A stretch of DNA of 41,965 bases, from the NCBI GenBank assembly GCA_030426085.1, contig JAUHYW010000084.1, positions 1-41,965 of the forward strand, in the 5' to 3' direction. Position 1 is the stretch's first letter, and every line of letters starts with the position of its first letter. Below, piece by piece: positions 18,029 to 19,981 of this stretch. The DNA comes from a bacterium. GTDB taxonomy: Bacteria; Myxococcota_A; Bradymonadia; UBA7976; UBA1532. The notes below the pieces were generated by a model, which was not told the DNA's origin, made no database searches, and worked only from the letters and a program-made list of their open reading frames with translations. Position numbers and translations under genes: made by a program.

Positions 18029-18382
18029 TCACGCCGGGAGCAGCAGCTCCTGGCGCAGCGCCGACAGGGTGAACGGCTTCTGAAGCACCGCTGACGCGCC
18101 CGCCTGCAACGCCCGCCGGACCGGCGGCGCGTCCGACGACAGCCCGGTCATCACCACCACCCGCACATCGGCCCCGGCCAGCTTCGCGATCAGCGGCTCG
18201 CCGGTCTGCCCATCCTCGAGCAACAGATCAACGAGCGCCACGTCGCAGGCCACCGGATCGGGCACCTCGGTCGGCGTCGCGCAGGTCGAGACCCGGCAGT
18301 CCGGGCCGTCGAGGGCGAGCTCGAGGTACTCGCGGATCTCGGTGTCGTCATCGACGATCAGGATGCGGGTGACGTGGCTCAC
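18029..18382 (-). CDS. Single-domain response regulator (receiver only)
   Basis: A 117-residue CheY-like receiver with acidic pocket VDDD (Asp11-13), phospho-acceptor Asp52 in VALVDLLLEDG, the conserved Thr in VVMTGLSS and Lys102 in LQKPF. There is no output domain, so it probably acts by protein-protein contact with a kinase or flagellar/motility target. The start is uncertain: GTG 18382 is chosen because it sits 5 residues before the first strand, but GTG 18421 in the same frame is possible and would add 13 residues. It is divergent from the acyl carrier protein gene and convergent with the heme-porin gene. No kinase adjoins it. Confidence 0.8.
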   Translation of the reverse strand: MSHVTRILIVDDDTEIREYLELALDGPDCRVSTCATPTEVPDPVACDVALVDLLLEDGQTGEPLIAKLAGADVRVVVMTGLSSDAPPVRRALQAGASAVLQKPFTLSALRQELLLPA

Positions 18383-18518
18383 GAGGACCGGAGCATAGGC
18401 CCTCACCGGGGGATATTCCACTTGATCTCGCCCCTTTGCGGGTCACATCATGCGGGCGCCGCGGGCGGGATGGCCCGGCTGGCGGCACCAGCACGCAACC
18501 GCGGATGAGGAACCGTTC

Positions 18519-18929
18519 ATGACCAGTGAAGACGTCTTCGAGAAGGTGCGCGACGCGTTCGTCGAGGCCCTCGGGGTCGAGGACGACGAGGTGACCCCCG
18601 GATCGAAGGTGTTCGACGATCTCGGCGCCGAGTCGCTCGACCTGCTGGAGATCGTCTACCTGCTCGAGCACGCCTTCCAGATCAAGATCCCCCGGGATGG
18701 CATCAAAGAAGCGAGCAAGGAAGGCATCGATCCCAGCGAGTACGAGGTCGACGGGGTCCTGACCGAGAAGGCCCTCGCCAAGCTGCGGGAGGTGATGCCC
18801 GAGGTCGACGCCAAGGAGATCACCCCCGGCCTCACCGCCAACGACATCCCCCGCCTGTTCCGGGTGCAGACCTTCGTCTACCTCGTCGAGCGCCTCCTCG
18901 CCGAGAAGGGCACGCCCGTCGAGGGCTGA
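18519..18929 (+). CDS. Acyl carrier protein, long variant
   Basis: A 136-residue acidic protein. The phosphopantetheine site is DLGAESLDLLEIVYLLEHAF with Ser39, the residue that would receive the 4'-phosphopantetheine arm carrying acyl groups. The N-terminal 60 residues match ACP helices I-III. About 45 extra residues (GIKEASKEGIDPSEYEV and following) come before the last helix (VQTFVYLVERLL), so it is longer than the usual 75-85 residue fatty-acid ACP. Start ATG 18519 has GAGGA upstream. Its stop overlaps the next gene by one base (TGATG), so it is probably the dedicated carrier for the reductase-like protein that follows. Confidence 0.85.
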   Translation: MTSEDVFEKVRDAFVEALGVEDDEVTPGSKVFDDLGAESLDLLEIVYLLEHAFQIKIPRDGIKEASKEGIDPSEYEVDGVLTEKALAKLREVMPEVDAKEITPGLTANDIPRLFRVQTFVYLVERLLAEKGTPVEG

Positions 18930-19981
18930 TGCGATTCGGATTCGTCGTCCACCCCCTCACGCCTCTGCAGCAGCGGCTGCTCGGGGTGCGCTCGGCCGAC
19001 CCCCGCCTGATCCTGACCGGTGGATCCCGCCGGACGCCGGCCCGCAAGCTGGCGAAGCTCGGGCTGCGCGATCCCTTCGGGGGGCGGGTCACGGGTCACC
19101 TCGTCGCGATCCCCGGCCTGCCCGACGCGCTGCTCACCGACCAGGAGGCCGGGGTCGCCGCCGTCGGCGAGGCGGTCGCGCTGTGCCATCGGCTCGGGGC
19201 GGACGTCGTCGGCCTCGGGGCGGTCGCGGCGATGATCGGGGGTCAGGGCAAGGCCGTCGCCCGACAAGCCCCCTGCCCCGTCTCCACCGGCAACGGCTTC
19301 ACCGCCCTCGCCGCCGTCGAGACCATCGCCCAGATCCGCCGGCTCGATCGCCGACGGGCGCCCATCGGCCTCATGGGCCCGCCGGGGCCGGTGGCCAACG
19401 CCATCCTCGAGGGCTTGTCGGCCCGGGGCGAGCCGGTCGAGATCGTCGCGCCGAGCCCGCCCCGCCCGCTGGTGCGGTTCGTCGACCGGCTCACCGCCCG
19501 CCACCACGGTCACATCCGCTTCGTCGACGAGCCCACGCTCGGCCCCGGACGCATCCTCGTCGCCGCGTCGAGCACCGGCGGCCGGCTGCCTCTCTCGGGC
19601 CTGCCCCCGGGCAGCGTGATCGTCGACGTGGCCGCGCCCCAGGACGTCGAGCACGACGTGCCCCGTCGGCGGGACGTCCTGATCCTCGATGGGGAGTACG
19701 TGCGGCTGCCCCGCCCGCTGATCGGGGGGTCGTGGCGCCGGGCCTACGGCTGGATCACCGGGCAATCGCGCCACATCTTCGCCTGCTTCGCCGAGCCGAT
19801 GCTGATGGCGCTCGCCCGGGACACAACCGTGTGCAGCGTCGGGCGCACGGTGCCCGGCGCCCGGCTCGACGCGCTCGCCGATCTGGCCAGCGCGCACGGC
19901 TTCGCGGTCGATCGGCTGCATGAGTACGGCCGCCGGGTGGCGACCGACCGGCTCATGCGCTTCTTGCAGCCTTCCGATTGA
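18929..19981 (+). CDS. Acyl-ACP reductase-like protein (resembles cyanobacterial AAR)
   Basis: A 350-residue protein with a pattern recalling the aldehyde-forming long-chain acyl-[ACP] reductase of cyanobacteria: FGFVVHPLT at the N-terminus, VVGLGAVAAMIGGQG, VSTGNGFTA (119-126), a nucleotide-binding GLMGPPGPVANAI (147-159), IVDVAAPQDVE, and near the end RHIFACFAEPMLMALAR (281-297) with SVGRTVPGARLDALADLASAHGF. Cys286 in FACFAE corresponds to the position of the AAR catalytic Cys as recalled by the annotator. The likely reaction is acyl-ACP plus NADPH to fatty aldehyde and free ACP. It directly follows the ACP gene. Substrate chain and the fate of the aldehyde are unknown. A shikimate-dehydrogenase-like dehydrogenase is the fallback reading. 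It overlaps the convergent ybeY end by 29 bases. Confidence 0.68.
   Translation: MRFGFVVHPLTPLQQRLLGVRSADPRLILTGGSRRTPARKLAKLGLRDPFGGRVTGHLVAIPGLPDALLTDQEAGVAAVGEAVALCHRLGADVVGLGAVAAMIGGQGKAVARQAPCPVSTGNGFTALAAVETIAQIRRLDRRRAPIGLMGPPGPVANAILEGLSARGEPVEIVAPSPPRPLVRFVDRLTARHHGHIRFVDEPTLGPGRILVAASSTGGRLPLSGLPPGSVIVDVAAPQDVEHDVPRRRDVLILDGEYVRLPRPLIGGSWRRAYGWITGQSRHIFACFAEPMLMALARDTTVCSVGRTVPGARLDALADLASAHGFAVDRLHEYGRRVATDRLMRFLQPSD

Follow-up and report, generated by a model that had tools for sequence, protein, structure and literature searches.

The analysis of the window, i.e., the whole stretch of 41,965 nucleotides, revealed an acyl carrier protein (ACP) gene immediately followed by a gene for a reductase with the predicted fold of the cyanobacterial acyl-ACP reductase (AAR). 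We consider it likely that the two gene products are the carrier and the release enzyme of a dedicated and dispersed reducing type II synthase, with the reductase probably freeing the fatty chain from the ACP in the form of an aldehyde. We also lean, if only slightly, toward a pathway extending over the whole phylum Myxococcota, in which a reducing type II synthase and its ketosynthase-beta partners would work with an insert-bearing ACP of their own and a stand-alone AAR-type enzyme releasing the chain as an aldehyde, the ACP-reductase pair often being encoded at some other site than the synthase. The first-pass annotation of this DNA had spoken of a "fatty-aldehyde pathway"; the release of an aldehyde is retained here as a probable step, but a dedicated type II synthase ending in a reductive release is the better interpretation, because the pair occurs throughout the phylum and is tied to a ketosynthase/acyltransferase set.

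The ACP and Reductase Genes

The two overlapping open reading frames proposed in the first-pass annotation, 18519-18929 for the ACP and 18929-19981 for the reductase, are both open, and their one-base overlap is visible as TGATG at the junction; GAGGAA precedes the ATG of the ACP gene by a few bases. The features of the region are the following:

18507..18512, + strand: likely ribosome-binding site of the ACP gene, GAGGAA (sequence)
18519..18929, + strand: acyl carrier protein, 136 aa, single-domain (PF00550, model, conservation)
18633..18635, + strand: codon of Ser39, predicted phosphopantetheine site, GAESLDL (invariant in 14 sequences)
18702..18839, + strand: predicted ACP insert, about residues 62-107 (Foldseek alignments, invariant residues)
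18929..19981, + strand: putative AAR-fold acyl-thioester reductase, 350 aa (profiles, fold)
19376..19396, + strand: predicted dinucleotide loop G150-PPGPV-A156 (aligned with GATGDIG, 162-168, of AAR)
19784..19786, + strand: codon of Cys286, predicted acyl-accepting nucleophile (equivalent to AAR Cys294 and PigE Cys296 in the alignment)

Both open reading frames are real genes, because their third-position GC is 0.93 and because the changes relative to the nearest homologues (locus L045) are concentrated in the third codon position (5/5/45 at positions 1/2/3 for the ACP and 63/53/159 for the reductase). Their neighbours in the window are unrelated to them: a response regulator gene lies upstream on the - strand, and ybeY, also on the - strand, converges from downstream. 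The response-regulator-like gene (18029-18382, -), which is divergent from the ACP gene and is a possible regulator, is kept in this position in four genomes of the family (the other copies being L045:10697-11080, L046:13129-13470, and L119:7159-7515). It stays beside the ACP even in genome G073, where the pair is split and the reductase is found next to ybeY-like and phoH-like genes (identities assigned by position or similarity). Gene calls outside the window derive from a simple codon model applied to draft genomes. A viral origin was rejected, since no relative was found among viral contigs; the only relatives in a plasmid collection were aminotransferase fusions.

The Acyl Carrier Protein

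The ACP matches PF00550 (36.3 bits, E 6.6e-9), its model has a pLDDT of 90.5, and it is conserved over its full length in 14 sequences, in all of which Ser39 (part of GAESLDL in the window's protein), correctly placed by the first-pass annotation, is invariant. When the model was compared with other ACPs using Foldseek, the alignments spanned 126-136 columns against proteins of 78-101 residues; the protein is thus not just extended at its end but has an insert, some 45 residues long, ahead of its final helix. This helix, IPRLFRVQTFVYLVERLL, corresponds to helix IV of ordinary ACPs. Residues G79, L81, T82, M93-P94-E95, and G104 of the insert are invariant in the 14 sequences. The genome also encodes a fatty acid synthase (FAS) ACP, from which the present one differs clearly (40% over 60 residues). 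The top Foldseek match of the model was RPA2022 (2kw2/3lmo), an AcpXL-like specialised ACP (E 9e-4); the score against the nearest long-ACP NCBIfam model, NF005079, which we take to be the AcpXL model, was 45.5 bits, below its cut-off of 83. A related ACP (about 43% identity) is also encoded in large genomes of family f14 (L113:7924-8343 and L118:8364-8768), and no ketosynthase set or reductase was recognised within the stretches read at these two loci.

Affiliation and Predicted Fold of the Reductase

The four AAR-like blocks reported in the first-pass annotation are all present in the 350-residue protein, Cys286 being located within FACFAE. No Pfam family matched the reductase, even at E 1. 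Against the NCBIfam model of PigE (NF053554), it scored 157.1 bits over residues 46-345; this match covers profile positions 53-353 only, that is, the N-terminal half, and is below the cut-off of 850, so that neither the full-length score nor the aminotransferase domain that define PigE was found. The score against the cyanobacterial AAR model TIGR04058 was much lower still, with 33.6 bits versus a curated cut-off of 449.7. When solved sequences were searched with a profile constructed from 20 homologues, PigE was recovered with an E of 2e-56 and AAR with an E of 1e-25; together with the 33.6 bits, this puts the resemblance to AAR beyond chance.

The AlphaFold model (pLDDT 91.7) superposed on AAR (6jzu) with a Z of 32.7 and an rmsd of 3.0 over 320 residues at 20% identity, the three-domain AAR fold being present, and on the carmabin TAD with a Z of 31.9. 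The next unrelated fold was that of glutamyl-tRNA reductase, with a Z of about 12. Shikimate dehydrogenase, which had been named beforehand as the assignment that would overturn the AAR one, was rejected together with other Rossmann families, since AroE-type chains reached a Z of about 10 (32.7 for AAR) and no Pfam match was found. According to the model, the reductase is thus an AAR-fold protein, and this part of the original proposal holds; its cyanobacterial type does not. Indeed, the protein is below the TIGR04058 cut-off, is nearer to PigE, and has no aldehyde deformylating partner of the ADO family above cut-off. As judged by sequence, its nearest characterised relative is the thioester-reductase domain of PigE and not cyanobacterial AAR. 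In the gene tree, the ACP-paired reductases lie on one side of a branch with support 98/97, apart from PigE, the fusions, and AAR.

Concerning ADO itself (PF11266), no match above cut-off was found in 20 carrier genomes, the S. elongatus control being positive; three sub-threshold partial matches were observed in these genomes, none of them in the window's genome. On this result for the 20 carrier genomes, alkane synthesis with ADO was rejected, in keeping with the idea of a route separate from cyanobacterial alkane synthesis.

Predicted Catalytic and Nucleotide-Binding Residues

Cys286 aligns with the catalytic Cys294 of AAR and with Cys296 of PigE, its predicted position being based on the alignment and on the fold match. 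Like the GR motif and the foremost glycine of the nucleotide loop, it is invariant in 20 homologues, the second loop glycine being nearly so. In the dinucleotide loop, GX(1-3)GX(1-2)G, glycines G150 and G153 are kept, while the third is Ala156 in family f1, to which the window belongs, and Gly in several distant members. R314 of AAR is kept as R306 in the GR motif, whereas the NADPH arginines R189 and R193 correspond to Ser and Phe, in a gapped stretch where the alignment is uncertain. In cyanobacterial AAR acting on acyl-ACP, an acyl-Cys294 thioester is formed and then reduced by NADPH to the aldehyde (PMC7089970), and the reductase domain of TamH converts C12-ACP to the C12 aldehyde and refuses free acyl-CoA (PMC9594044). 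In the light of these precedents, of the fold, and of the alignment of Cys286, there is good support for assigning to the reductase the putative conversion of an acyl thioester to an aldehyde.

Conservation of the Pair in Myxococcota

The conservation was analysed in 379 draft genomes drawn from Myxococcota. A match to the reductase was found in 59 of them, the ACP in 63, and a ketosynthase-beta-like protein in 54; reductase and ACP are both present in 50 genomes, and all three proteins in 46. In 47 of the 50, the insert-bearing ACP lies directly upstream of the reductase on the same strand, with gaps of 2-225 bases. The ACP-reductase pair is therefore conserved across Myxococcota, and the check proposed in the first-pass annotation, co-occurrence of the pair in other genomes, came out in favour of a dedicated carrier beside the reductase. 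Each pairwise association among the three proteins has a Fisher p of about 1e-41, uncorrected for shared descent, which partly accounts for the co-occurrence. Several genomes have a reductase match without such an ACP, the match being within a long open frame; one of these is an 843-aa aminotransferase-AAR fusion with the TamH-like order (L064:9520-12051, -). In several distant genomes, a methyltransferase-like gene, whose product is a possible tailoring enzyme, is found directly 3' of the reductase (L061:3594-4484, L062:8123-8998, and L123:12393-13280; identity from Pfam for L061 and L123 and from similarity for L062).

The Ketosynthase Set

In distant families, the neighbours of the pair are a ketosynthase that has the active-site Cys motif, in most cases along with AHGT, and a truncated ketosynthase-like protein that lacks this motif (loci L054, L056-L059, and L061), in some cases together with an acyltransferase. 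In the window's genome, a set of this kind is located on another contig, C93 (L079:7647-14616), which encodes a FabZ-like dehydratase, a ketosynthase, a 746-aa ketosynthase-like/ketosynthase fusion, an acyltransferase, a chain-length-factor-like ketosynthase without the Cys motif, and a ketoreductase; no ACP and no recognised release gene were found in this cluster. One of its proteins, KS3, resembles the ketosynthase-like gene product encoded beside the distant pairs (E 8e-38), and relatives of the set add an FMN enoyl-reductase-like gene. Genome G010 yielded no reductase match; there, an ACP of this type is encoded within the operon of the synthase, together with a dehydratase, four KS genes, and an FMN enoyl-reductase-like gene.

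In 28 genomes, no more than 15 kb separate the ACP from a ketosynthase-beta-like gene; in 21 (the window's genome and 20 others), the two are unlinked, and pair and set are then connected by their co-occurrence and by their linkage in other genomes. The separation is real, since in G104 pair and set are on one contig, 541 kb apart. Within family f1, all seven reductase carriers have the C93-type set, and two genomes possess this set without the reductase: in G242 the ACP is at the contig edge, and a downstream reductase would thus be cut off, while G161 (92% complete) has neither reductase nor ACP. It follows from G161, from several other genomes with the ketosynthase-beta-like protein but no reductase, and from the 13 genomes with the ACP but no reductase that release can also happen otherwise.

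On this basis, the holo-ACP would carry a chain made by the ketosynthase set, which in the window's genome would be that of contig C93 loading this very ACP; the reductase would take the acyl group from the ACP onto Cys286, and NAD(P)H would give a hydride to the bound acyl group, upon which the aldehyde would leave. What the data show are the genes, the fold, the alignment of the Cys, the conserved pairing, and the co-occurrence with the ketosynthase set; the loading of this ACP by the C93 set, the activity, the cofactor, the nature of the chain, and what becomes of the aldehyde are inferred.

Alternative Explanations

Other readings of the pair can be proposed. The fact that in the window and in its family the pair stands alone among unrelated genes, together with the ability of cyanobacterial AAR to accept general acyl-ACP or acyl-CoA (PMC7089970), would suit a pair independent of the C93 set, in which the ACP would receive ordinary fatty acyl groups and the reductase would provide fatty aldehydes as precursors of alcohols, wax, or ether lipids. 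This is close to the reading of the first-pass annotation, whose ether-lipid and alcohol products found no support in the analysis. We regard it as unlikely, given that the ACP differs clearly from the FAS ACP of the genome and bears a conserved insert, that the pair co-occurs with a ketosynthase-beta-like gene often close to the ACP, and that no ADO-family match above cut-off was found in the 20 carrier genomes. It is less probable still that the reductase cooperates with an unlinked aminotransferase to yield a fatty or polyketide amine, as do PigE, TamH, and KecF, but with two proteins: the nearest characterised relatives are indeed fused to a class III aminotransferase (PMC8341465, PMC6498172), and so is the distant phylum relative at L064, yet among the loci read, with part of the neighbours checked against profiles, none of the ACP-paired reductases had a recognisable aminotransferase next to it, and the window's genome already has a separate protein combining activating, aminotransferase, and AAR parts. 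Finally, the changed third loop glycine and the two changed NADPH arginines might indicate an AAR-fold protein devoid of acyl-thioester reductase activity, with another semialdehyde or a regulatory role; the invariance of Cys286, of the GR motif, and of the first loop glycine, the near-invariance of the second, and the constant pairing with an ACP make this very improbable.

If the reading as carrier and release enzyme of a dispersed type II synthase is correct, it explains how the chains made by a widespread and unstudied group of Myxococcota ketosynthase genes are ended, and it adds a carrier-specific enzyme that forms aldehydes on its own, not as part of an aminotransferase fusion, while the dedicated ACP offers a direct handle on the pathway product. 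With pair and synthase frequently encoded at separate sites, the release step would escape cluster-based mining. A recent antiSMASH-based survey described type II PKS as rare in Myxococcota (PMC13213394); a system divided between genomic sites, and belonging to families that are poorly cultured, may have been counted too low in that survey.

Comparison with Known Systems

AAR-type release outside cyanobacteria, which the first-pass annotation had raised as a possibility, is already documented for PigE (PMC8341465) and TamH (PMC9594044) and proposed for KecF (PMC6498172). A literature search found no described ketosynthase-ACP-AAR system of Myxococcota.

With cyanobacterial AAR (TIGR04058; 6jzu), the reductase shares the whole fold, the equivalent of Cys294, and the GR motif (R314), and differs in model score, identity, ADO partner, and R189/R193. 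The ACP resembles the AcpXL-like ACPs in being longer than an ordinary ACP, but it has a larger insert and a reductase partner and is below the NF005079 cut-off. By far the best sequence relative of the reductase is the N-terminal thioester-reductase domain of PigE from the prodigiosin pathway of Serratia (PDB 4ppm, NF053554); however, this domain of PigE is joined to a class III aminotransferase, whereas the reductase of the window stands alone behind its own ACP. The tambjamine YP1 proteins TamA and TamH likewise perform a carrier-dependent, AAR-type reduction of acyl-ACP, but the TamA carrier is fused to an adenylation domain and TamH to a transaminase, while the ACP of the window is free, bears an insert, and has no adjoining ligase. 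On contig C20 of genome G000, a 1369-aa protein (L082:7942-12051, -) combines an AMP-binding domain and a class III aminotransferase with a C-terminus resembling AAR (FACAAEGLLLAL), so that the functions of TamA and TamH seem to be joined in one chain, in which Pfam detects no carrier domain; its gene directly adjoins a fatty-acid desaturase gene. Lastly, the koreenceine genes kecABCDEF-H include a type II set in which two KS and two partial KS-like genes accompany the ACP, and the AAR domain of KecF has been proposed to set an aldehyde free (PMC6498172). In KecF, which is encoded in the one cluster, aminotransferase and reductase are fused, whereas in the window's genome and its relatives the reductase is a protein of its own and the ketosynthase set often unlinked; koreenceine, with its proposed mechanism (PMC6498172), is nonetheless the nearest precedent for a type II synthase with its own ACP and reductive release.
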